Source of the DNA: Gracilimonas sp.
GTDB lineage: Bacteria > Bacteroidota > Rhodothermia > Balneolales > Balneolaceae
NCBI RefSeq assembly: GCF_017641085.1
Contig: NZ_JAEPPI010000003.1
Span: forward strand, 572,894 to 636,893
Direction of reading: 5' to 3'
DNA: 64,000 nucleotides
The notes below the pieces were generated by a model. It had not been told where the DNA came from, did no database searches, and was given only the letters and a program-made list of their open reading frames with translations. Position 1 is the stretch's first letter; every line of letters starts with the position of its first letter. The translations under genes were made by a program, and so were the position numbers. Positions 9,945 through 24,133 of the stretch are shown here, one piece after another.

Positions 9945-10613
9945 TTACCCCAGTTTCTCCGTAAGCTCCTCAAACCGGACGGTAATATCTTCAGCGCTGA
10001 ATACGCTGCTTCCCGCTACCAGGATATCTGCTCCGGACTCGACCACCTTTTTGGCGTTTTTGAGGTTCACGCCACCATCAACCTGAATCAGAAACCCGAG
10101 CTCTTGTTCTTCTCTGATTTCAGCCAATCGCTTCAGTTTGTCATAACTGCTCTCGATAAAACTCTGCCCGCCAAAGCCGGGGTTTACGCTCATAATCAGT
10201 ACCAGGTCCACATCATTTAACACTGGTTCGATATTATGAAGTGAAGTAGCCGGGTTAACAACGACACCTGTCATAATCCCATACTTTTTAATGTTCTGCA
10301 GGGTTCGGTGGAGGTGAGGGCAGGTTTCGAAGTGGACGGAGATTAAATCGGCTCCGGCCTGTACGAATGCTTCCACATAGTCATCCGGGTTTTCAATCAT
10401 CAGGTGTACATCGATGAATGCCTGGGGAGCAGCTGATTTTGCAGCTTTTACAACTCCTGGCCCATAACTAATGTTGGGCACAAAATGCCCGTCCATGATA
10501 TCACAATGAATCCAGCTTGCTCCGCCTTTAACCGCATCATCTATATCTTGCCCAAGGCGTGTAAAGTTGGCCGCTAAAATGGATGGTGCAACGATAGGAA
10601 GTTCAAAATTCAT
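9945..10613 (-). CDS. rpe: ribulose-phosphate 3-epimerase
   Basis: Interconverts D-ribulose 5-phosphate and D-xylulose 5-phosphate in the pentose phosphate pathway. It is a 222-residue TIM barrel. Motifs: PSILAANF, CDIMDGHFVPN with metal-binding His/Asp, DVHLMIENP, MSVNPGFGGQSF, and QVDGGVN with the second catalytic Asp. All expected residues are present. The start overlaps the stop of the PASTA-protein gene by 4 nt (ATGA). It appears to be the last gene of the long minus-strand run that begins with porU. Confidence 0.95.
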   Translation of the reverse strand: MNFELPIVAPSILAANFTRLGQDIDDAVKGGASWIHCDIMDGHFVPNISYGPGVVKAAKSAAPQAFIDVHLMIENPDDYVEAFVQAGADLISVHFETCPHLHRTLQNIKKYGIMTGVVVNPATSLHNIEPVLNDVDLVLIMSVNPGFGGQSFIESSYDKLKRLAEIREEQELGFLIQVDGGVNLKNAKKVVESGADILVAGSSVFSAEDITVRFEELTEKLG

Positions 10614-11470
10614 TGATCAGGGTTGTTATTGGGTTGGTTCTGTTGATTGTTGAGGGAATCAGGGTTAGCACCTGAATTATTATCTGTAGAATCTATGATC
10701 ACAGCTCCGCCTTCGCTTTGTTCGATAACTTCAAAACGTTCGGATATGACCAGTGTCAGGCTTTCTCCTTCGCGAAGTTCTTCTGCTTTGGGAGAAAAGT
10801 CGAGCACGGTATTGGGCACAACATCTTTGGTTGGCCGGAACTGGACTTCACCGACTCTGAATCCGGCTTCACGTAGTTTGAGCTGAGCTTCAGGAAGTCT
10901 GAGCCCAATTATTTCCGGGACTGTGATAATACGACTGCCAAATCCGTCACCTACCACAAGGTCTATAACCGTACCTTTCTGAACGGTGGTTCCGCCTGAA
11001 ATAGATTGACGTATGATGGTCTTAAACCGGGACGATTCATAGCTGCGGCTGCCCACTTCCAGTCCATAATTCTGAAGCTGTATTTCTGCATTCCGAAGGG
11101 AGAGATCTACAACATTGGGGACCACTACCTGTGGTTTAACTTCGTTGTTTACCGTGAGATAGATTTTCCGATTCGGCTTCACGATGTTATCGGCGCTCGG
11201 GCTTTGGTCAATTACGTAATTCGCCGGATAGGCTGAATTGGCACGACGGTCTGCCACTTCAAAACGAAGCCCATAGTCGGTTAGCAAAGCTTCGGCTTCT
11301 TCTAAAGAAATCCGGGTTACATCAGGTACCGTTACCCCTTCATTATAGTTGGTGTAGTAGGGCATGATGAAGTTATCAGCCACATATAGAAAAGCGGCAC
11401 CGAATAGCATCAGCGAGAAGGTGCCGATATAAAAATACTTGTTAGTCAGAATCTGCTTGAGCATGCGCAT
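10610..11470 (-). CDS. membrane-anchored PASTA-domain protein
   Basis: A single N-terminal membrane segment (about residues 12-32) is followed by three PASTA repeats: VTVPDVTRISLEEAE (about 47-112), VVVPNVVDLSLRNAE (about 115-180) and ITVPEIIGLRLPEAQ (about 183-248). A Ser/Asn/Gln-rich tail follows. PASTA domains bind peptidoglycan fragments in kinases and PBPs. Here there is neither a kinase nor a transpeptidase domain, so it is a stand-alone sensor or structural protein in the periplasm. Overlaps rpe by 4 nt and lies 23 nt after the DUF5683-like gene. Confidence 0.88.
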   Translation of the reverse strand: MRMLKQILTNKYFYIGTFSLMLFGAAFLYVADNFIMPYYTNYNEGVTVPDVTRISLEEAEALLTDYGLRFEVADRRANSAYPANYVIDQSPSADNIVKPNRKIYLTVNNEVKPQVVVPNVVDLSLRNAEIQLQNYGLEVGSRSYESSRFKTIIRQSISGGTTVQKGTVIDLVVGDGFGSRIITVPEIIGLRLPEAQLKLREAGFRVGEVQFRPTKDVVPNTVLDFSPKAEELREGESLTLVISERFEVIEQSEGGAVIIDSTDNNSGANPDSLNNQQNQPNNNPDQ

Positions 11471-11493
11471 AAAATACAGGAACTATCAACGTG

Positions 11494-12462
11494 TTAAAAG
11501 TGCCAGGTTACAGAAAATTGCTCCATCTTCATCAGGTTGGTATTGGTCTCAATACGACTGTTTTTTAGCTGAACCGTGAATAATGCATCGAAGGCGGAAA
11601 CAACATGGTTTACTACCAACAGCTTCAGGATGTTCCCGGCTGCCCGGTAGTTGTCATTGAATTTCTGCGCCCGATCCCGACCTTGGTAGAATAGGGTGAA
11701 CGGTTCATCCCTGCCATTCCACATGTATCGGTACATATCGGGGGTTTGATTGTTGGCGGTGGTAACCTGTCCGTACCAATCCCGCCAACCCGGCTGGTAT
11801 TGGTAGTATTTACTGATCAGCTCATAATACTGTTGCGAGCCATAATCAGGCAGCAAATGTGAAAACTCACTGCCATACCGATTTTCAAATACAAAAGGTG
11901 TTTCCTGTTCAACCTGATGCAGCAGGTTGATGTTTACCTTCGACCAGTCGTTAGTAGTGTTGGTGAAATCCGGATTCTTTCCTGCAATATGAGACTGAAG
12001 ATCCTGCCAACCGTTATTCAGGTTATTTTGCATAGAATAATTCACCAGCCATTCCGCATAAGCTAATACGCTCCAGTTTTGATGAGTGAATTCTTCATAA
12101 GCTTTTTCCTGTCGGCGAGCCGTTGCATTTCGGTCGAGATGATAGATAATACCGACGGCCTCAACCGCAAAGTAGATTCCGGCCCGTACCCATTTCCCGT
12201 TTGCGGCCTGACCTGAACCCGGTATAATTGCCGATGCCGTAAAAGCAACAAACGGCTTGGTTCGTGGAAGTTCTAAAAAAGTGGATTGTTGATTCGTGTA
12301 TGCAGACCGGTAAGAGAAATCTGAAAGGGTAATTTCGCCGGGATCATAAACCTCAGAATTAGCTTCCTTAAAAATCTCATTACTGAAGCTGCTCAGCGTC
12401 TGGGCTTTGCTTCCGGCTGAAGTCAGCAGTAGTAGAATTAAGATGCTGGAAAGCTTTCTCAT
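11494..12462 (-). CDS. DUF5683-like exported or membrane protein
   Basis: A 322-residue protein with a cleavable signal peptide (ending SKAQ). The segment SAIIPGSGQAANGKWVRAGIYF, followed by a hydrophobic stretch, is characteristic of DUF5683 proteins common in Bacteroidota. The remainder contains many aromatic residues and no recognisable catalytic motif. The start overlaps the stop of the 1121-residue TolB-like protein by 4 nt, so translation is probably coupled. Function unknown; the position in a porU/porV run suggests a role in the envelope. Confidence 0.75.
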   Translation of the reverse strand: MRKLSSILILLLLTSAGSKAQTLSSFSNEIFKEANSEVYDPGEITLSDFSYRSAYTNQQSTFLELPRTKPFVAFTASAIIPGSGQAANGKWVRAGIYFAVEAVGIIYHLDRNATARRQEKAYEEFTHQNWSVLAYAEWLVNYSMQNNLNNGWQDLQSHIAGKNPDFTNTTNDWSKVNINLLHQVEQETPFVFENRYGSEFSHLLPDYGSQQYYELISKYYQYQPGWRDWYGQVTTANNQTPDMYRYMWNGRDEPFTLFYQGRDRAQKFNDNYRAAGNILKLLVVNHVVSAFDALFTVQLKNSRIETNTNLMKMEQFSVTWHF

Positions 12463-15400
12463 AACAGTTCAAAATCAAAGGTTATACCGAAGTGAATGAG
12501 TAATTCGCGCCCATAAGTAACTTTGTTACTCTGTGAGTTTGTGATGAAGTCTTCGGGAAGGGTTAAGGTAAACTCATTGAACCCATAGGCTCCACTCACA
12601 AAGAATTTCAGCGGGAATAAGTAATATCCGTTTAAAGCCAGTCGCAGTTCGGCCCCAATGCCGGATTTCAGGTTGTTGCCCGTATCGTAAGGACTTCGCC
12701 AGCCGTTGCCGGTTTCAAAGAAGAAACGGGCAAAAACTTTATCCAGTGTGTACGGTCCCACTTGTTTGTTGATGTTCCTGAAAATGGGAGCAAACCAGGA
12801 CAGGCTTGCAAAACCGGTAGTGCTGCCGCCTAATGCGAAATAGGGATAACTTCTCAGCCCTAAAAATCCGCCAACATAATCAGCATAAAAAGAATCGCCG
12901 GGGTTATTAAAGTAGTGAAAGCCTCTTATACGAGCCTGAAACGCCTGATCACCGAAGGTTTTAAATCCATATCGCATATGAATTTCTGAAGAGTGATTAT
13001 TGGAGTTCTTGAAAACGGGGGAGAGGGATCCATCATCAATTTCATATTCTTCCAGTAATTTGGAGGGTTGATATTGATAGCGTGCATATCCTTTTAAACC
13101 CAGCGGGGCAATGTCGGCATCATTTGAATATGTGTAATAATCGAAGGTGTAGGATGCGGACAGAGTAGTGCCTCGAAAGTACTGTGAAGAAGATCCGCTT
13201 ACTTGTGCTTTCAGTTCCCGGGAATAGAAGTCGTCGGTGGAAACCCGGTAAGGGCTGTAAGCAACTCCCAGCTCTAGCATACTCCTTCGGCTCAATTTGC
13301 TTCTGAAATATAAACCGGCTTCCCAGATATCATAAGCAATATCCACAGAGATGGTATCGGGCTGGCCGCAGGAAGTGCAGCGAAATTCTTCAATCGACAA
13401 TCCGTCTGATACATTACGGCGAAGGTTATAAATTTCGAGTGCCACCGTTGGTGACCAGCTGCGCTCTATAAAAGGGAGCCCGCGGTGTTCGGCAATCAGA
13501 AATGCATCACGGTCCAGGCCAAAAAGTCGGTCAGGGCGGAAGAAACCGCCAATGCTTTCAGCCGGTTGTGATGCCACTCCTACCATCAATCCACCAAATA
13601 AACTCAGTTTGTCTATCACATCCCGAGAAGAGAAATAAACGCCGGGTTTGGCATCCCGAAGCAGGTTCTCGCCGAACTGTCCGATTTTCCCATTTCTGAT
13701 CAGTGAGCCGTTATTTCCATTGACCTGGGAGTAGTTATCAAACCGAAGCACCGGGAAAAAGCTAAAGCCGGAATAGGTATCTTCGTATTCGCGATAGGTT
13801 CTTTCACTGTCATCATCTATGGTGGACAATTCAAAACGATAACTGCCGGTGTCGGCAATGGCTTCTGCCTGTTCACCAAAGGGGCGGATGTCGGTATCAT
13901 CAAAATCATTAAGCTTGTTGATGTACTCAAAGTCAGCTCCCGGCTCCATGATTTCATCCGGAAACGGAGGCTCATAATAACCAAAACGTGGTTGTGCCAG
14001 CAGCCTGTTCTCCGGTGATGACTTAATCTTATATCCGTCTGCGTGGTATTCTGAGAAATAAATAATTCCGTCTTGCCCGATGAAAGGCATAAACGCTCCA
14101 CCGACTACACTGCTAAGCTGTTGCGATTCTCCACTGCTCAGCGGAACACGAAAGATATTGAAGATACCTTCAGGATTGGCCGAGTAGTACAAGTAATTTC
14201 CATCAGGACCAATATGAGGATCCCGATAATCGATGTACTTATCTGATAAGTAGGGAAGAACCACGCCCGATTCTACATCGAGAAGGTAGATGTTACGGTT
14301 TCCATTTACAGCTTTGGCAAAATAAATTTTTGAATCGGTTGGTCCCCATTCAGGAGTATAAACTGTTTCTCCACTTTGGTAGTTGGTTAGCCGGGTTACC
14401 GAGTCAGGATGTTCGGGGTGAAGCAGCACCAGATTCTGAGTACCGCGCGAATACTGAACGGCTACTATCTTGTTGTTATCCTTATTCCAGGCAGGGGATT
14501 CGATACGGGCACTGTTTGTAAGGCGTTTATTCTCTTCCGATTTGATGTCGTAAATAAAAATATCCCGGTAATGTTCTCCATATTTATTCTTCTTGTTGAT
14601 GGCATAGGCAATCCGGTTGCCGTCCGGAGAAAAGGAAAATGAAGATTCCAGAAAAGTAAGTATCGGCTCCAAAGAACTCACATGGTTTTTGGACTGGTGG
14701 AAGTCAAGATCATCTATCACAGCTACTTCCTTTTCGTTACCGTCAAGATCCTTCAGGTATAAGGAGAGTAAACCATAATCAACGCCTTTGTTTGAGAGAT
14801 AAGCCAGCCTGGAACCATCCGGGGATTGTTGCGGATAAAAGTTGAAAAAACCGGCTTGCTCAACGGTATCACTTAGAGTAGGGTTGATGCCTTCCGTAGC
14901 TGTTGCATAAAAGTCTTTTCGTTCATCAATCCAGTTGTCAAAAACTTCATTGCCGGGCAGTCCGGTTGCCATTTCAATGGCCTCTTCAACGGTATAAACA
15001 CCTTTTTCACCAAGGGCAGAAGTTATTTCTCTCAGTACTTCATCCCCAAAACGATTAGCCAGGTAAATAACAAAAGCATAGCCCTGATTATATACCGTTT
15101 CACGCTCAAGGCTGGTTTTGGAAGAAAAAGTTCCCATTTGCTGAAGCGAAAAGTAGGTGTCAGTAAGGATGCGCGTTCGTAAAATCATATCGCGGTGGCT
15201 GTCCCACGTTTCATATAAAAGCCCGGCCGTTTGATATTGAGCCGTACCCTCGGCAAGCCAGGCCGGGATATTCACCGTTGCAAAAGGCATGGTTATGATG
15301 CCATTGGGGAATCCGTAAAGCACATCAGGGCGACGTACATCTTCGTACGACAACCACTGTAAATAAAAAGCCGGAATTTTGCGACTCCGCTTCATCCCCT

Positions 15401-15824
15401 TCTGAATTTGGATGATGTGAGTGTATTCGTGGGTGATTACATTTCGCAGCCAGTTGTGGGTGCCACGCAGGGGAGTGTTTAAAGCAGGAAGCCAGATATC
15501 AATTTTATTATCGAAGAAGTAAGCAGCGCCGTTGGAATAATCTTCCCTGTCTTTGAGCACAATACTTACTTTCTCATCCGGGGTGTATTGGTACAGGTCG
15601 GTGATCGGAGGGTGGATTTCTTCTGCAATGCGGGAGACCACCTGTGCTGAACGGCTGTTACCTTCCTGAAAGTGCACCAGAAAGTGCTCGCTTTCAATGG
15701 TGTACCAATCCAGGTGATTCATGGGGTAATCGTAGAACCGCACATCTGTCTGTGCCTGAGATAAAAATGGAGCCAGCCCCAGAAGCAGAAATAAAACCGA
15801 AATTAGCTTAAATCTTCTCATCAA
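12459..15824 (-). CDS. gluzincin peptidase / TolB-type propeller / beta-barrel protein
   Basis: Large exported protein of 1121 residues. A signal peptide ends at LSQAQ (about residue 25). Residues about 30-300 form a peptidase-MA-like domain with HEYTH and a downstream WLAEGTAQY supplying the third zinc ligand, so the active site looks complete. Residues about 315-620 contain several WD40-like beta-propeller (PD40) blades, such as SPDGSRLAYLSN and SPDGNRIAYAIN. The C-terminal 400 residues are rich in aromatic beta strands, end in DFELL, and look like an outer-membrane barrel. The 4-nt overlaps at both ends couple it to its neighbours. Peptidase substrate unknown. Confidence 0.82.
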   Translation of the reverse strand: MMRRFKLISVLFLLLGLAPFLSQAQTDVRFYDYPMNHLDWYTIESEHFLVHFQEGNSRSAQVVSRIAEEIHPPITDLYQYTPDEKVSIVLKDREDYSNGAAYFFDNKIDIWLPALNTPLRGTHNWLRNVITHEYTHIIQIQKGMKRSRKIPAFYLQWLSYEDVRRPDVLYGFPNGIITMPFATVNIPAWLAEGTAQYQTAGLLYETWDSHRDMILRTRILTDTYFSLQQMGTFSSKTSLERETVYNQGYAFVIYLANRFGDEVLREITSALGEKGVYTVEEAIEMATGLPGNEVFDNWIDERKDFYATATEGINPTLSDTVEQAGFFNFYPQQSPDGSRLAYLSNKGVDYGLLSLYLKDLDGNEKEVAVIDDLDFHQSKNHVSSLEPILTFLESSFSFSPDGNRIAYAINKKNKYGEHYRDIFIYDIKSEENKRLTNSARIESPAWNKDNNKIVAVQYSRGTQNLVLLHPEHPDSVTRLTNYQSGETVYTPEWGPTDSKIYFAKAVNGNRNIYLLDVESGVVLPYLSDKYIDYRDPHIGPDGNYLYYSANPEGIFNIFRVPLSSGESQQLSSVVGGAFMPFIGQDGIIYFSEYHADGYKIKSSPENRLLAQPRFGYYEPPFPDEIMEPGADFEYINKLNDFDDTDIRPFGEQAEAIADTGSYRFELSTIDDDSERTYREYEDTYSGFSFFPVLRFDNYSQVNGNNGSLIRNGKIGQFGENLLRDAKPGVYFSSRDVIDKLSLFGGLMVGVASQPAESIGGFFRPDRLFGLDRDAFLIAEHRGLPFIERSWSPTVALEIYNLRRNVSDGLSIEEFRCTSCGQPDTISVDIAYDIWEAGLYFRSKLSRRSMLELGVAYSPYRVSTDDFYSRELKAQVSGSSSQYFRGTTLSASYTFDYYTYSNDADIAPLGLKGYARYQYQPSKLLEEYEIDDGSLSPVFKNSNNHSSEIHMRYGFKTFGDQAFQARIRGFHYFNNPGDSFYADYVGGFLGLRSYPYFALGGSTTGFASLSWFAPIFRNINKQVGPYTLDKVFARFFFETGNGWRSPYDTGNNLKSGIGAELRLALNGYYLFPLKFFVSGAYGFNEFTLTLPEDFITNSQSNKVTYGRELLIHFGITFDFELL

Positions 15825-18800
15825 TGCACAACTCCGATTTTAATGAGTTTGGTTTCAGTTTTGCCGTCAACGGTGGCTTTAACCCGTGCAACGTATCCAC
15901 CGCTTCCCCAGTCACCGGTTTGAACCTGAACTTCCTGAGGAAAACCTCCGGGAGAGCTAAGGGATTGTTCAAAAATGATACGCCCGCTCATGGTTATCAC
16001 AGTAATCTGTACGTTCCCGCCGGGTTCCGCAAGCTCAAAACGTATGTTGGTATAATCTGTTGCCGGATTTGGCCAGTTGTAGGTTTCTGTTTCATTCAGA
16101 ACACCAAAACCGGAAGGAGATTCATTTTCCGAAGGTTGAACACGGGCTGATACCTTATTGAATGGGGCCTCCCCATATCGGGTTGCCCATTTGGTATCGG
16201 TAACCTGAGTCAGATTCCATGATTTCACCGTACCATCGTGACTGACGGCATATAAGTTTCTATTGTAGATAATCGGGTGAACAGGTTGAGTCGTTGACGT
16301 AACCGCTTTACCAACATAAATCGGGAAGCCATCAATCAGCTGTCCTTGATTGTTGTAAGCAAAAATGTTTTGGGACAGACTATCCTGACCGACGACCAAC
16401 GTTGCATATTCAGAACCGGATGCTATCAGGTCGGTGTATAGAGGAGTGCCGATAAACTGAACACCGGCTGGTGCATCTACGGGATAATAATCCTCGGTAG
16501 ATCCAAGTCGGTTATTTGCAATGAGCTGATTATTGGTTTTATCAACCCGAAGGATGGTGGCATCGTCAAGGATTGCCGGCCACTCAGCAGCTGTTTCTTC
16601 AAAAACAAGGAGTTCTCTTTGGTCAGATTCAGGATCAACCAATACAAACCGATTATCTTCAAAAACATAGAACATTACCCGGTTACCAAGCATGATTGAG
16701 CCTGTATAGAGCCGGTTTTGATCAGATACAGGTGTATAAGCATACCCGCTTACGGATGAGAATGAAACGCCGGAATCATACGCTTCGGAGAATTCACCGC
16801 TGATAACTTCAGAGCGTTGAAAAGGAGGAATCCCTTCTGAGGTAGGGTTACCGTTATCGGCCGTCAATCCCGCATCAGTAAAATCAGCTAAAATAGTTTC
16901 GCCGGCTTGAGAGCTCAGAAAGCCACGGTTGGCCGGGAGCGTAGCTGTCCAGCTGGTGTCAATTTGTTGGGTATTTGAGTTCCATGAAATGGAAGCGACC
17001 GCTATATCAGGAGTACCTGCTTTGGGTTTTTCCCCCAATACCAACTCAGTTCCAATAAATGGCTGCTGAACAGTGGCATCAGAAAGCTGAAACTGCATGT
17101 TCTCAGGATCAGAAATAGAAAGAGCAGTCACCGATTGCTGAGAAGGAACAATCAAAAAAGTGTCGGTTGCGGTTTCATAAACAGACAGGGAAAGCGGAAA
17201 GTAATTGAAGTAAGGATCATCGCCGGTGAAATAGCTTTGGGAGGAATCCAGCTGTACCGTAAAGTCCGAGGTATATAAATCGGAATTGGGTTCGTCAGGA
17301 CGGATTTTAAATGAAGCTGTTGGGAGATTATCGGAGAAATCGTACAGCTCAAAAAAGGAGGGAGCCCCCGAATTGCTTTTGTTATCCGGGCGGGTGTTGG
17401 AGCTGAACCTGTTTTGATAGAAGCTGAGCACCTGCCCGGATTGTAAAATTACGCGATAGTCATTACCACTCCACCAATAGTCAAAAGCGGATCCAAAAGC
17501 GGCGCTGTTATCCAGTGCTCCGGGTACTCCGGGGCCGATATCCTGGGCACCATCTGCCTCTTCCAAATCCACGCCACGTCGCGCAGGGTCTGCATTTACG
17601 CGCTCATTCTGAAGCTGCAGGTTGATCATGGCCTCATCAATATGCCAAATCAGAATCCCGCCATTAAGATCTCTGTCATCAGACGGGTCGTTTTCATTTT
17701 CTCCGACATCCAGTCCACCCGGAAGGCTGAAATCAAAATTTGAGGCATTCACAAAAGTTCCGGCCTGCAGAAGAGTGTCGAACTCTGACTGCTGAAATAC
17801 AAAGGCTTCATCCTGATTGGTAAAGGTTTGCTGAACCTCATTGCCATCGGGTTGTCGGATAGTCAGCGTAATTCCGGTTCCATCGGGATCTCTGTGCCTG
17901 TTTTCAATCAGGAAATACTCGGAATCGGAGAGCTTGTATTTTGCAATGGCATTAGGTTGATCGAGGGAATTTGCCGGAAGCTGAATATCACCCGCTTGGT
18001 TCACATCAATTTCAAAAGGGGTTTCCCATCCTAAATACATTTTTTCCCAGGCAGAAGGTTCGGGAGGAAGCAGTCCATTGTAGGAAAAGAATCCGGCTCC
18101 GTCCATCAAACCGAAACGACCAATTGCAGGGTCTCCGGTTTCAGTATTAAATAAATCCGGTAAGCCCAGGTGACTTCCAATAGATGCACACAGAAGCCCA
18201 TTTATGGAAAGGGGAAAAGCGAATTCATTATCCTGAATATCAAGCCCACGGCGTGTTTCTGTTCTTGGGAGAATCATGGAGTTTGTGACACGAAACGAGC
18301 CATCATTTACAGTAAATCCGTTAAAAGAAGGATCATTTAGAAGCTGCCCGAGATTTTCTTTTCGAAGGTAAAGGGAAGGGATGTCAAAAGGGGTGATGTC
18401 CAGATTAGTGCCCGTTAGCTCAATATCACGCCCAACACCGGCATGGAATATGACAAAAGCAGTGGTTTCAGGATCCAGTCCGGAAGCATCAAAATTTGGA
18501 CCGTTTTCAACTTCTTGCCAGGCATCGCGGGCAAGCTCGGCTACTTTTTCGTTCGTGAAGGTTTCTCCAGTGGGGGAGTATTCCTCCATTTTTTTCGGGA
18601 GTTGATAAATTGTGGGAAGTACCTGGTAATCGATGGTCAGTTGACCATCGGAGGATTGCTCATAATAGTTCTTAGCAAACTCAAGGTGAGCTTCAAAATA
18701 ACTTCGGTTGTGCGGAAGGGGTTCAACCCGGAAGTCTTCAGCATTAGCCAAATAAGGAAGTCCGTCCATGCCATCGGGGCCAAAAATCCCGGTTCCGGAA

Positions 18801-19015
18801 GTCAGACGGTTACTATCCGGTTGAAATTCAACCATAATGGCAACCACATTAAGCGTTCCGGTCGCGTTCAGGTTCTCACTCAATACCGGATGGGGCTTGG
18901 AAATAGCATGAGAACGCTTAACGGGGATATGTTGAGCGTGGGTGTGGCGGTTCCAAAATAGAAAGAGCATGCTAAAAACTAACATGCTCCTCATGAAAAA
19001 CTTCAAATGCTGCAT
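15821..19015 (-). CDS. M6-like secreted protein with type IX sorting domain, catalytic site degenerate
   Basis: Secreted protein of 1064 residues with signal peptide. The first 400 residues resemble M6 (immune inhibitor A-like) metalloproteases: EFAKNYYEQSSDGQLTIDY, then the zinc-site region, then GLMDGAG and PSAWEKMYLGW. The expected HExxHxxGLPD is replaced by ASIGSHLGLPD near residue 277: both zinc histidines and the catalytic Glu are gone, while the surrounding residues are kept. The middle is beta-rich. The last 85 residues form a type A type-IX sorting domain (NWPNPATDYTNI to KLIKIGVVH). Starts 3 nt after porV and overlaps the next gene by 4 nt. Probably a non-enzymatic cell-surface protein. 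Confidence 0.85.
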   Translation of the reverse strand: MQHLKFFMRSMLVFSMLFLFWNRHTHAQHIPVKRSHAISKPHPVLSENLNATGTLNVVAIMVEFQPDSNRLTSGTGIFGPDGMDGLPYLANAEDFRVEPLPHNRSYFEAHLEFAKNYYEQSSDGQLTIDYQVLPTIYQLPKKMEEYSPTGETFTNEKVAELARDAWQEVENGPNFDASGLDPETTAFVIFHAGVGRDIELTGTNLDITPFDIPSLYLRKENLGQLLNDPSFNGFTVNDGSFRVTNSMILPRTETRRGLDIQDNEFAFPLSINGLLCASIGSHLGLPDLFNTETGDPAIGRFGLMDGAGFFSYNGLLPPEPSAWEKMYLGWETPFEIDVNQAGDIQLPANSLDQPNAIAKYKLSDSEYFLIENRHRDPDGTGITLTIRQPDGNEVQQTFTNQDEAFVFQQSEFDTLLQAGTFVNASNFDFSLPGGLDVGENENDPSDDRDLNGGILIWHIDEAMINLQLQNERVNADPARRGVDLEEADGAQDIGPGVPGALDNSAAFGSAFDYWWSGNDYRVILQSGQVLSFYQNRFSSNTRPDNKSNSGAPSFFELYDFSDNLPTASFKIRPDEPNSDLYTSDFTVQLDSSQSYFTGDDPYFNYFPLSLSVYETATDTFLIVPSQQSVTALSISDPENMQFQLSDATVQQPFIGTELVLGEKPKAGTPDIAVASISWNSNTQQIDTSWTATLPANRGFLSSQAGETILADFTDAGLTADNGNPTSEGIPPFQRSEVISGEFSEAYDSGVSFSSVSGYAYTPVSDQNRLYTGSIMLGNRVMFYVFEDNRFVLVDPESDQRELLVFEETAAEWPAILDDATILRVDKTNNQLIANNRLGSTEDYYPVDAPAGVQFIGTPLYTDLIASGSEYATLVVGQDSLSQNIFAYNNQGQLIDGFPIYVGKAVTSTTQPVHPIIYNRNLYAVSHDGTVKSWNLTQVTDTKWATRYGEAPFNKVSARVQPSENESPSGFGVLNETETYNWPNPATDYTNIRFELAEPGGNVQITVITMSGRIIFEQSLSSPGGFPQEVQVQTGDWGSGGYVARVKATVDGKTETKLIKIGVVH

Positions 19016-19018
19016 GTA

Positions 19019-20164
19019 TTAAAAGTCAATAAGCAAACTGAATCGCAAGGTGTTGGCAAGTGGGTGATCTTCTTCAAGCGTTTTTATATAACTGAAGTCA
19101 ACACCCAGAAAACTATAGCGGATACCGGCGCCAAAAGTAATGTATTCACGATCACCGTTTTGGGGGTCTTCGAAATAATAACCGCCACGCAGAGCAAACT
19201 GATCAGCATACCAATACTCAATACCGGCTCCAATCATAAACTGCTGCATCAGCCCAACCTCTACAGTATTCTGACCGTCAAAACGCTCGAAGCTGCTCCA
19301 TGACTTGTAAAGGGCTTCAATGGGGCCCACTGCTTTGGTTTCGATAACGGTTGAGTCACCGCTTTGCACTTCAAATTTATCGGTACGGGCCATGATTTTG
19401 GAAATATCGTTGGCAACGGTGATGCGGTTAATGCCTTCATCATCCAGGTCAAGATCGAATGACCACCCGAAGCGCAGTACCGTAGGCAGCGGGTCTTTCT
19501 GGGCGTTATCGGTGTACTGGATGCCGGGCCCGAGATTTGATAGGTTTGATCCAAAGCTAAACCGTGCATCTCTTCCGCCAAGCGAGAACGTGTCCGTCTT
19601 ATACAAGAAGGAAAGGTCTACAGCTACACTGCTTCCCGGATTCACTTTTTGGGCTGCGATGGAAGTACCACTGGCCAAACTGGAGTAAATAAGGCGGAGA
19701 CTGGTTCCAACCCCAAAGTTTTTACTCACCTGGTATCCATAAGATCCACCGAGTGCCACTTCGTAACTTTGGAATCGGGAGATTGGCTCCGGACTTGTTT
19801 CATCCGTTTCCACTTGTTCCCCCAGGTTCAGGTATGTTAAGTGAGCACCGAAGGTGCCAATGCCTTCAACGTAATATTTTCCTACCACGTAATCGTAGAA
19901 AAGGTCACTCACGTTAAAGTTAGCCAACCAGTTCGAGTGGGTGATACTAGCCTGGTTCGCTCCCTTTTGGAAAGCTAAGCCTGCGGGATTCCAAAATAGC
20001 GCAGATGCGTTGTCTGCAATAGCTACCCCGGTGTTACCCATACCGGCACCGCGTGAATCCGGTTCAATTTGAAGAAAGGGCACCGCTGTAATGGCAACCT
20101 GTGCATATGTGATGGCGGGCATTAAAAATAATGCCGCTGCTATGATGGATACTGTCCTTTTCAT
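19019..20164 (-). CDS. porV: PorV/PorQ-family outer-membrane protein, PorV-like
   Basis: Outer-membrane beta-barrel protein of 381 residues with signal peptide (ending TYAQ). The start of the mature protein, FLQIEPDSRGAGMGNTGVA, and ASALFWNPAGLA are the hallmark of the PorV/PorQ family (FadL-like fold). PorV shuttles type IX cargo from the translocon to the PorU sortase. The C-terminus alternates as strands and ends in LLIDF. It lies 54 nt downstream of porU and 3 nt upstream of a type IX cargo gene. The adjacency with PorU favours PorV over PorQ. Well supported by family; role inferred. Confidence 0.88.
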   Translation of the reverse strand: MKRTVSIIAAALFLMPAITYAQVAITAVPFLQIEPDSRGAGMGNTGVAIADNASALFWNPAGLAFQKGANQASITHSNWLANFNVSDLFYDYVVGKYYVEGIGTFGAHLTYLNLGEQVETDETSPEPISRFQSYEVALGGSYGYQVSKNFGVGTSLRLIYSSLASGTSIAAQKVNPGSSVAVDLSFLYKTDTFSLGGRDARFSFGSNLSNLGPGIQYTDNAQKDPLPTVLRFGWSFDLDLDDEGINRITVANDISKIMARTDKFEVQSGDSTVIETKAVGPIEALYKSWSSFERFDGQNTVEVGLMQQFMIGAGIEYWYADQFALRGGYYFEDPQNGDREYITFGAGIRYSFLGVDFSYIKTLEEDHPLANTLRFSLLIDF

Positions 20165-20218: not shown

Positions 20219-23200
20219 CTATCGTATGATTACGAGCTTTTCGACTTGCTCTGCTGTTTGTCTTCCTTTCGGGGTATTTGTTGCAACCCGAAGCACATAA
20301 ATATAAGTACCGTTACCCAGGCGATCATAATCCCGGTCACGGCCATCCCATGAAATACTGGCATAAGAACTTGTAGTTATGAGTGACTGTTCAATGTGTT
20401 GGACCGGCTTGCCACTCAGTGTATAAATACGAACTGATACGTCGAGTGGATTACCGGGCTGGTTATGTTCGAAGCTGAATCGGGTGGCATTATTCATCGG
20501 GTTGGGGAAGTTAAACACGTTTCTGACGGTTAACTCCTCACTCGATGCTACTTCAAAGAAAACTTCTTCTTCTGAAGGATTATTGTGCACATCCCACGCT
20601 CGAACTTTAAGGGTATAGCTACCTTCCGGAAGTTGATCCAGAGGGTACTCGATACGCCCCCGCGTGAAATCATTTAAACTGCCCTCATAAAAATCGTTGA
20701 GGACGAACGATTGTTGTGGTTCTGTATCGATTGTAGCAATTATTTCATGTCCTACTCCTGTTCCTGTAGTGTTTATGCCAGATTGATCTTCAAGTTCAAT
20801 TATCAGTGTTGGTGAACTGTTCACCAAATTTCCGTTCACAAAGCGTTCATCGTTCAGAAATACATCCATTTGCGGTCCCGACCCGTCGTCAACCGCGTTT
20901 TCGTTAACTCCGTTAAAGCGCACTTTTGTGTATGAGCCGCCGGCTGTTTGGCCATTACTGTTAGCAAAGAAAATGATACGGCCGGTGTTATCTGAAAAAC
21001 TGATGTCTTTAGGTACTATAAAGGAAGAGGTAAACTGCCCATTGGTGATGGCGGCCTTGCCTTTAAAAAGAATATCGTTCTCCGATTCATAATCACAGCC
21101 AGAAAGCCGGCAGTTGTCCTGGGCAACCCATTCTCGATCGGATGGCAGAGGCACGTTACGAGGGGCGTCCATAACCGTAATAACCGCCTCTCCGCTATAA
21201 TTGGGTAATGGATTTCCCTGCAGGTCTTTTATCTGTCCGGCCAGGTTAACCTGTTCAAGAGCCTTTATGGTGAGTGTGGTATCTTCACCGGTTTCTGTGT
21301 AGCCGTTAATGGACGTCAGGTCGGCTTGTTGCTCAGGCAGGCGGAATTTTGTAGCGGGATCACCAATAAGAATGAATTTTTTACTGTTCCGGGAAGCAAC
21401 AACGGTAGAACTGCCGATACTGGAGTTTTTTGTACGCAAGTAAATATCACCCAATCGAAGAGGGCTTCCATCGGGATTACGTTCAACCATGCGTTGGGAG
21501 AGGGCCACGTTCAATCCGAAGTTATTTCCGGCACTTATCGTAAAACTTGTGAAGACGACCCGGGTAGTCGTAAATGCTCCTATAATCCCACCGTTTTCTG
21601 CAAAAAGCAGTTTTTCAGCACCAGACTGGGCATCAATGTCGTCGTATCGGCCGAACTGACAAGTAGCTGTTACAAGCACAGCTAATTGGTCGCGGTTGGT
21701 CAGGTTGGGAATGTAATTGGAGAGAAATAACTCCTCATCAGACAGCGTCTGCTCGTTTCCGTGGCCCGAATAATTCATAACCAGCGTACCCTCGTTAAAT
21801 GAGCTTATGAAAGCATCGGTGGCACCGGGTATTTTTCGTCCCGATCCGGTAATCTCAACCGGGTAGGCAAATTCATACACTTTTTTGATTCGTAGTCCTG
21901 GCTCCATAAAGTTCATGCGCTGGGCAGTTTCATCGGCATTAACCACGTGTATGTCTCGGTCGCCGGAATCAGGGAAGTCATCATCGGCAGCAAAGGTTAA
22001 CAGATTTTGCCAGTTGCCGGTGTTGGCCGGGTCTTCGTAGGTTTTAATTTTTTGGACGGCTATAGCTGCTTCTGATCGTGTTTGTGCAGAAATTCGGCCC
22101 AGTCCAATATCCAGGTAATGCGAGTTGCTGGTCTGCCCACCGGTTAAATCTCCCTCATTGTCATCCAGGAAACCGAAGAAATCATCGGTAGCGAAAGACT
22201 GTATTCTATTCAGCGATTCATCACTTTGATAGGTGACGATATAATTTTGGAAGCCATTGCTGATGATGTTCTTGTAGTCGAAGGTGGCGTCCCCAAAAAG
22301 GAGCAAATATTGCGGAGGTTCCTGCCCGTCATTCAAAGCGCGGTCGTACAAAAATTTTGTGTAATCACGAATGGCGGATGGATCGACAACGCCGCCCGAA
22401 AATTCATTCAATATTTGTTCCTGGGTTACAATAACGGGATTTAATCCATCCTTCTGAGACCTGTAATTGCCAAGGTCTTCGGCATATTCCCTGAACTCAT
22501 CGGCGGTGACAATGATATAATCAGGGTAATCGGTAATTCCTTTCAGGTTTTGAGGGGCTACTAAAGTGCCCATAGCCGGTTGGAAAAAGCTGGATTGAGC
22601 CACAAACCGTAAGTCATCCCCTGAATAATAATTGAAGCTATAATTTCCGTTAGATCCGGTTGAACTCAATAGCTTCGGCTGGGTTACATCACTTACATCT
22701 AGAATGACGGGCTGGCTGTCAAACCCGGAGAGCCGGTATTGAGCAAGTTCACTGGAAGAACCATCGGCTGGGGAATAGAAATACAGATGATTATTCTGTG
22801 CCTGAAGTTCTCTGCGAACTACCACGCGGAACCAGTCCAAAAAGCCCCTTGAGCTTGATTCGCTGTGATTATAGGTAGCTTCTGCCTCAATAATTCCATC
22901 TTGAATGGATGGGGTGAAACTGGTCCTGAAGGAGCCCTCCACACCGGAATCCCCGGAACTACAGTTATAACAGCTTCCACAGCTGCTTAAGCAGGAAATA
23001 GCCCGGATATTCACCGTTTCAATTTGTTGATTGTTTATCGAGACTTCGAAATTGGCAGAATTCGTGGACCTGTTAATAAATTGACCTTCTACGGTAATAG
23101 GCTCATTGGTGATGATACCGGCAAGGGTATCTGCAAAAACAGGGATGGAAGTACCGTTGCTTGAGGCATCAAATCGCCGCCCAAACCAGTGCCGGCCTGA

Positions 23201-24133
23201 CTTTATGCTTTCTTCAGTCTTGTAGAGCTCTTCATCTTTCCAGCTAAAATCATGAAAGGAGGTAATGGTTCGGGAAGGGGAGAAATTGTTGTTTACGGCT
23301 GCAAGACGGTCTCCGGGAGCATCCGAAACGGTCAGAAATACAAAGGATTGGTTACTGTAAGGATGAAGGCGGTGCTCAAATTCTATGCTGTCTCTGAGTA
23401 CCCGGTGTGGTGAATTTCCGTAAAAAATTACGCGGTCATTGGCATTAAAAGTGCCATCATTTTGTCCTTCAACAATAACAGGAATCTGGGTTAGCTCCGG
23501 GCGGGGCTGGTCGTTTGCTTCAGGCAGCTGATAGCCTCCAGTTCCCCAAAGCTGGATATTGCGTGGATCAATAGCGCTGACTTCAATCCCCAGATCTTCA
23601 AGATAGGTGGCATCCAGTTCGTAAATTCCGTTTTTAGTGATGGGGATTTTGTACCAGGCTCCTTCGTCAAACAGAGAGCTGTTGTTTTGCTTGGCTGTTC
23701 TCAATTGTGGAAGGCGGGTATCTCCCTCTTTATAAACCCGAATTCTGAATTTTCGCAGAACTTTCGTGCCACTTTCTCCATAGCGGGCAATATTTATACT
23801 GAGCGCGCTTACTTTTTGGCCGCGTTGAATACCGGGCTCAGAGATCTCAATCAGTGGCTTAGAGTTATCAGAAAGAGCTAAAACGGTCGCTTGTTCCGGG
23901 GAAATTTCACGATTAATAGTAGAGACAGCTTGCTCAAGGACCTGGTAACGAGGGGTGTTACCGGAAACGGGAACCATCAACCCATAAGGAGACAGGATTT
24001 CGAGCTTCTCATTGGAGAACTCGTAATCTGTAAATGAGTCTGTTTCTGCTACTACTTTCAGTTGCTGGGCATTTGCTACTTCAGCAATCAATAAGCAAAG
24101 CAAACCACTAATATAAAGCAGCTTGTTAAGCAT
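20219..24133 (-). CDS. porU: type IX secretion system sortase PorU
   Basis: Gingipain-type C25 cysteine peptidase that cleaves the C-terminal signal of type IX cargo on the outer surface and attaches the protein to the cell. It has 1304 residues, signal peptide (ending ANAQ), a long beta-rich pro-region, and a C25 domain at roughly 545-930. The catalytic His is in NYSGHGNE near residue 790 and Cys in TATCQFGRYDD near 825. A beta domain and a C-terminal sorting-type domain (NFPNPMNNATRFSF to KLVIIR) follow. The length fits PorU rather than a gingipain. First gene of a run with porV 54 nt downstream. Confidence 0.92.
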   Translation of the reverse strand: MLNKLLYISGLLCLLIAEVANAQQLKVVAETDSFTDYEFSNEKLEILSPYGLMVPVSGNTPRYQVLEQAVSTINREISPEQATVLALSDNSKPLIEISEPGIQRGQKVSALSINIARYGESGTKVLRKFRIRVYKEGDTRLPQLRTAKQNNSSLFDEGAWYKIPITKNGIYELDATYLEDLGIEVSAIDPRNIQLWGTGGYQLPEANDQPRPELTQIPVIVEGQNDGTFNANDRVIFYGNSPHRVLRDSIEFEHRLHPYSNQSFVFLTVSDAPGDRLAAVNNNFSPSRTITSFHDFSWKDEELYKTEESIKSGRHWFGRRFDASSNGTSIPVFADTLAGIITNEPITVEGQFINRSTNSANFEVSINNQQIETVNIRAISCLSSCGSCYNCSSGDSGVEGSFRTSFTPSIQDGIIEAEATYNHSESSSRGFLDWFRVVVRRELQAQNNHLYFYSPADGSSSELAQYRLSGFDSQPVILDVSDVTQPKLLSSTGSNGNYSFNYYSGDDLRFVAQSSFFQPAMGTLVAPQNLKGITDYPDYIIVTADEFREYAEDLGNYRSQKDGLNPVIVTQEQILNEFSGGVVDPSAIRDYTKFLYDRALNDGQEPPQYLLLFGDATFDYKNIISNGFQNYIVTYQSDESLNRIQSFATDDFFGFLDDNEGDLTGGQTSNSHYLDIGLGRISAQTRSEAAIAVQKIKTYEDPANTGNWQNLLTFAADDDFPDSGDRDIHVVNADETAQRMNFMEPGLRIKKVYEFAYPVEITGSGRKIPGATDAFISSFNEGTLVMNYSGHGNEQTLSDEELFLSNYIPNLTNRDQLAVLVTATCQFGRYDDIDAQSGAEKLLFAENGGIIGAFTTTRVVFTSFTISAGNNFGLNVALSQRMVERNPDGSPLRLGDIYLRTKNSSIGSSTVVASRNSKKFILIGDPATKFRLPEQQADLTSINGYTETGEDTTLTIKALEQVNLAGQIKDLQGNPLPNYSGEAVITVMDAPRNVPLPSDREWVAQDNCRLSGCDYESENDILFKGKAAITNGQFTSSFIVPKDISFSDNTGRIIFFANSNGQTAGGSYTKVRFNGVNENAVDDGSGPQMDVFLNDERFVNGNLVNSSPTLIIELEDQSGINTTGTGVGHEIIATIDTEPQQSFVLNDFYEGSLNDFTRGRIEYPLDQLPEGSYTLKVRAWDVHNNPSEEEVFFEVASSEELTVRNVFNFPNPMNNATRFSFEHNQPGNPLDVSVRIYTLSGKPVQHIEQSLITTSSYASISWDGRDRDYDRLGNGTYIYVLRVATNTPKGRQTAEQVEKLVIIR

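Follow-up and report, generated by a model that had tools for sequence, protein, structure and literature searches.

The locus analysed here, in a 64,000-nucleotide stretch of Gracilimonas sp. DNA (the window; Table 1), raises the question of what a protein with the fold of a peptidase does once its catalytic motif is gone, and what it has to do with the type IX secretion (T9SS) genes beside it. Its inactivation as such is already recognised by NCBI curation: the protein, M6i, is a full-length member of NF052323 T9SSA_dep_M6i, "T9SS-dependent M6-like inactivated metalloprotease" (1274.9 bits against a cut-off of 600; residues 10-1064 on model positions 2-1043). A literature search found no paper on this family and nothing directly relevant. 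The NF052323 entry is an annotation model, to which we add the operon position, the partner MAprop and the independence from the sortase; new here are the position next to porV, the co-occurrence with MAprop, and the retention of M6i without PorU, any C25 peptidase or a clear PorZ.

Table 1. Features of the M6i locus, with positions in the window.
Feature	Position	Strand	Description and basis
M6i	15821..19015	-	1064 aa, inactivated M6-like (NF052323); signal segment, predicted M6 fold, predicted 8-bladed propeller, type A CTD
M6i signal-peptide-like segment, residues 1-28	18932..19015	-	hydrophobic helix, then THA-Q; sequence inspection only
M6i M6-fold domain, residues 52-575	17291..18862	-	AF2 model, structural alignment, TIGR03296 below cut-off
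M6i degenerate active site ASIGSHLGLPD, residues 277-287 (expected HExxHxxGLPD)	18155..18187	-	codons and 117 homologues
M6i eight-bladed beta-propeller, residues 577-937	16205..17287	-	predicted; closest solved structures BamB
M6i type A T9SS C-terminal sorting domain (CTD), residues 976-1064	15824..16090	-	TIGR04183, PF18962
MAprop	12459..15824	-	predicted outer-membrane protein: intact gluzincin site, TolB-like propeller, BamA-like C-terminal barrel; PF13485, PD40
porV (T9SS type A shuttle/carrier)	19019..20164	-	3 bases upstream of M6i; NF033710 296 bits, cut-off 250
porU (T9SS C25 sortase)	20219..24133	-	NF033707 1097 bits, cut-off 420; PF01364 308.6 bits
DUF5683-like gene	11494..12462	-	25.8 bits, just under cut-off 26.7; conserved neighbour

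The relationship of M6i to M6 peptidases is evident from its predicted structure. In profile searches the M6 model TIGR03296 scores 63.3 bits, under its cut-off of 110.8, and a PDB sequence search gave no match. The AlphaFold2 model, built from 57 sequences, has a mean pLDDT of 84.7 and a pTM of 0.82. In this predicted, non-experimental model residues 52-575 form an M6 fold, which aligns with the M6 zymogen 4yu5_B (VIA-align Z 19.6, rmsd 3.5, 374 aligned residues, 18% identity). M6i resembles the M6 peptidases (immune inhibitor A type, MEROPS M6, TIGR03296) in fold and in its GLPD and LMDG motifs, but differs from them by lacking HExxH in all homologues and by adding a propeller and a T9SS tail. 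The propeller is nearest to BamB (Z 21.6, rmsd 3.8, 301-306 residues aligned, 13% identity). Many other propellers score close to it, and the match is a generic one; the T9SS tail of M6i, which would take it to the cell surface, sets it apart from BamB. At the C-terminus, TIGR04183 scores 25.2 bits, above its cut-off of 23, and PF18962 26.4 bits, marginally under its cut-off of 27; the ETYNWPNP motif of this sorting domain is nearly invariant among homologues.

A sequence-only reading of this gene had reported ASIGSHLGLPD at residue 277 in place of the expected HExxH motif, and both the peptide and its codons (GCA TCT ATT GGA AGT CAC CTG GGC TTA CCG GAT, window 18187-18155, minus strand) prove exact, with GLMDGAG and AWEKMYLGW following downstream. 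The register of the motif was set by an active M6 relative of the same order (L035, MHELGHNFGLPDLY), not by the sequence of the solved M6 zymogen: LGHNFGLPDLYTPEVSGRNPGHWDIM of the relative aligns with IGSHLGLPDLFNTETGDPAIGRFGLM of M6i, so that the first histidine, the glutamate and the second histidine correspond to A277, S278 and S281. This relative (G038:C2:440095-440748), an M6 peptidase with the active-site motif HELGHNFGLPDLY, is encoded outside the porV cluster. Residues 272-283 are predicted to form a helix, the element that bears HExxH in zincins, and His282 occupies a non-ligand position, where almost every homologue has H, F or Y. In the Asp-zincin motif HEXXHXXGXXD the aspartate is the third zinc ligand (PMC3890501); the residue of M6i at this position, D287 of GLPD, is kept in 115 of 117 homologues. 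The statement that all catalytic residues have been lost hence holds for the H, E and H and fails for the aspartate.

Homologues were drawn from 57 relatives, from a genome-contig scan (L043-L120) and from further families in the phylum, giving 117 aligned sequences, a few of which may be present in two of these collections. At position 277 there is A in 110 sequences, G in 4 and S in 3; position 278 holds S, Q, N or T in all but four sequences (I, L, M); and at position 281, 100 sequences have S, 16 have N and one has R. Close homologues that keep HExxH, which in the sequence-only reading would have marked M6i as a decayed copy, were looked for, and the motif is present at this site in 0 of the 117, which come from many families. 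Named homologues belong to Gracilimonas, Balneola, Rhodohalobacter and other Balneolaceae; further ones were found in a Rhodothermales MAG (L119) and an Ignavibacterium MAG (L120). One more family (f41, L156) is nearly identical to the latter around the site and is therefore probably also from the Ignavibacteria. In a few draft genomes (G052:C29, L065, G272:C94) M6i appears to be divided between two frames or to contain an internal stop, which may reflect assembly errors.

Against the closest relative of the window species, dN/dS for M6i is 0.08 overall; for residues 250-335, dN is 0 at a dS of 0.21 (two close species), and the best-conserved 23-residue window of the protein spans residues 284-306. 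On these comparisons the dead site is under strong purifying selection, and the alignment indicates that the loss of the catalytic site is ancestral and has persisted in all the relatives. As the same loss recurs in 117 homologues from separately sequenced organisms, it is due neither to chance nor to sequencing error. We give practically no credence to the view that M6i is a decayed copy or a sequence error with active orthologues nearby: nothing was found to support it, no homologue has the motif, the frames are open over their full length, and selection is strongly purifying, which led us to rule out decay. It is very improbable, too, that the M6 domain has kept enzymatic activity by means of a different metal site or mechanism. 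The residues H102, H191, H458, D287, D305, E371, D460, E486 and D512 are indeed 95-100% conserved (114-119 homologues), but conservation of this kind is also expected of the structural and calcium sites of the M6 fold. The proposal of a conserved, functional pseudo-peptidase, with a predicted M6 fold, a type A sorting domain and a place beside porU and porV, is borne out.

The place behind porV is constant. Wherever the contig was long enough, porV immediately precedes M6i on the same strand (110 of 110 loci, two of which are apparently one place reached by two routes), and all 115 genomes with M6i also have PorV matches. In family f37 (L151-L153) the porV-M6i pair is intact although porU lies elsewhere, on another contig where it could be located. 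On the other side of MAprop, the order DUF5683-PASTA-rpe (window 9945-12462) is constant in the Balneolales loci L043-L116, L171 and L172, and it persists even without M6i and MAprop. A place for DUF5683 alongside M6i and MAprop in one three-gene module was considered and ruled out, as it stays where M6i and MAprop have been lost (L171, L172).

Directly downstream, the ATG of MAprop (15821-15819) shares one base with the stop codon of M6i (TGATG). Its gluzincin residues H132, E133, H136 and E192 are invariant in sets of 24 and 45 sequences. In the AlphaFold2 model of MAprop (pLDDT 84.5), the propeller aligns with TolB (Z 26.7) and the barrel with a BamA (Z 21.3, 333 residues); MAprop would thus resemble BamA in its barrel and differ from it by a protease domain and a TolB-like propeller placed before the barrel. 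No NCBIfam equivalog covers window 12459-15824. Several distant paralogues of MAprop occur per genome.

The inheritance of the two genes was compared across 296 genomes of the phylum, taken in a single draw, with thresholds of E < 1e-100 for M6i and E <= 1e-100 for MAprop. M6i is present in 115 genomes (110 over the curated cut-off) and MAprop likewise in 115, and the two sets are identical with zero exceptions (Fisher p 3e-85, a value that ignores relatedness, related genomes not being independent observations). The co-occurrence is partly due to linkage, since the genes mostly lie side by side and one deletion can take both. At eight inspected loci, however, no MAprop gene lies in the roughly 8-10 kb downstream of M6i, and the gene sits at another place in the genome (L133, L146, L151, L152, L153, L161, L163 and L168, in families f7, f21, f37, f44 and f48); G314 and G039 were left out of this count because a contig ends near M6i or MAprop. 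Joint absence also speaks for the pairing: in genus g6, G305 has the order thiolase-porV-M6i-MAprop-DUF5683 and G285 and G032 have thiolase-porV-DUF5683. Five genomes (G032, G262, G285, G316 and G187) have PorV and CTD proteins but neither M6i nor MAprop, and the pair is therefore non-essential to type IX secretion.

Most descriptions of type IX secretion come from Porphyromonas and Flavobacterium, in which PorU and PorZ are required for attachment to the surface. Nine M6i-positive genomes that are 97-100% complete (sortase INDEPENDENCE: G007, G014, G027, G163, G209, G240, G270, G297 and G305) have no PorU over the cut-off and no C25 peptidase at all. None of them has PorZ over the cut-off, with weak sub-threshold matches in G027 and G305, and all retain PorV, SprA and 7-32 CTD matches. 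The retention of M6i thus follows PorV and MAprop, not the sortase. A T9SS without sortase also occurs in the five genomes named above that lack M6i; in both groups PorU and every C25 peptidase are missing and no PorZ match passes the cut-off, but SprA, PorV and several CTD proteins persist.

These genomes bear on the idea that M6i belongs to the PorU-PorV-PorQ-PorZ attachment complex as a subunit without catalytic activity, helping the sortase in the manner of PorZ. M6i is encoded with porU and porV, and like PorZ it combines a beta-propeller with a type A CTD in a secretion neighbourhood, PorZ (5m11) being Foldseek rank 2 for M6i (E 4e-10). PorZ, in contrast, has two propellers and no M6 fold, and its N-terminal propeller domain PF21544 has no match in M6i. 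A separate PorZ gene is present in the genome of the window (G000:C1:863-1333) and in most relatives, which rules out M6i as a PorZ replacement; many Bacteroidota have PorU and PorV without M6i; and the nine genomes, with neither a C25 sortase nor PorZ over the cut-off, show M6i to be retained independently of the sortase module and make a role as sortase cofactor unlikely. Membership of the attachment complex is accordingly a reading that we regard as improbable.

A stronger competitor holds that M6i is simply one T9SS cargo, a structural or ligand-binding surface pseudo-peptidase whose gene lies beside porV for co-expression only. Its lack of any HExxH site and the fact that its sorting domain is one of 52 CTD matches in the genome agree with this. 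However, its position behind porV is fixed across many families, its presence is identical with that of MAprop, and it is kept where the sortase and most cargo are gone, and we consider this explanation rather unlikely. The suggestion of a repurposed structural surface cargo and nothing more falls short for the same reasons, M6i being a fixed partner of porV and MAprop (identical sets, 115 of 296 genomes) and not one cargo among many; it is also retained in genomes without PorU or a clear PorZ.

We favour as probable, from sequence comparison and structural models, that M6i is a functional pseudo-peptidase which, together with MAprop, makes up a surface module served by PorV and is the non-catalytic part of it, and that it is neither decaying nor ordinary cargo. 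Since type A domains use PorV as a shuttle in Flavobacterium (PMC12618676, PMC10994853), M6i would be exported via SprA and PorV, in a hypothetical series of steps in which (i) at the SprA translocon, PorV would collect M6i by way of the type A CTD; (ii) PorV would hand it over to the outer surface; (iii) M6i and MAprop would together form a two-protein outer-membrane module with M6i as the non-catalytic partner; (iv) the dead M6 cleft would bind polypeptide without cutting it, any cutting by the module being that of MAprop; and (v) the module would serve a PorV-dependent step that has no need of the PorU sortase. The N-terminal part of MAprop may be periplasmic, by analogy with BamA-type proteins, in which case the membrane would separate it from the exported M6i, a point that counts against the pairing. 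More tentatively, and as a possibility to which we give less than even weight, M6i and MAprop could constitute an undescribed outer-membrane type IX machine, in which a PorV-delivered dead peptidase and a BamA-like barrel with a live HExxH protease would handle type A proteins without the PorU sortase.

In summary, the dead site itself is ordinary, having already been curated; the partnership with porV and MAprop and the independence from the sortase are the parts worth following. The position of M6i behind porV, its one-to-one occurrence with MAprop and its persistence after sortase loss point to a second, sortase-independent branch, which would span Rhodothermia, Ignavibacteria and relatives. 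The M6i-MAprop pair offers a defined two-gene target for studying it, together with a natural set of genomes that lack both genes.
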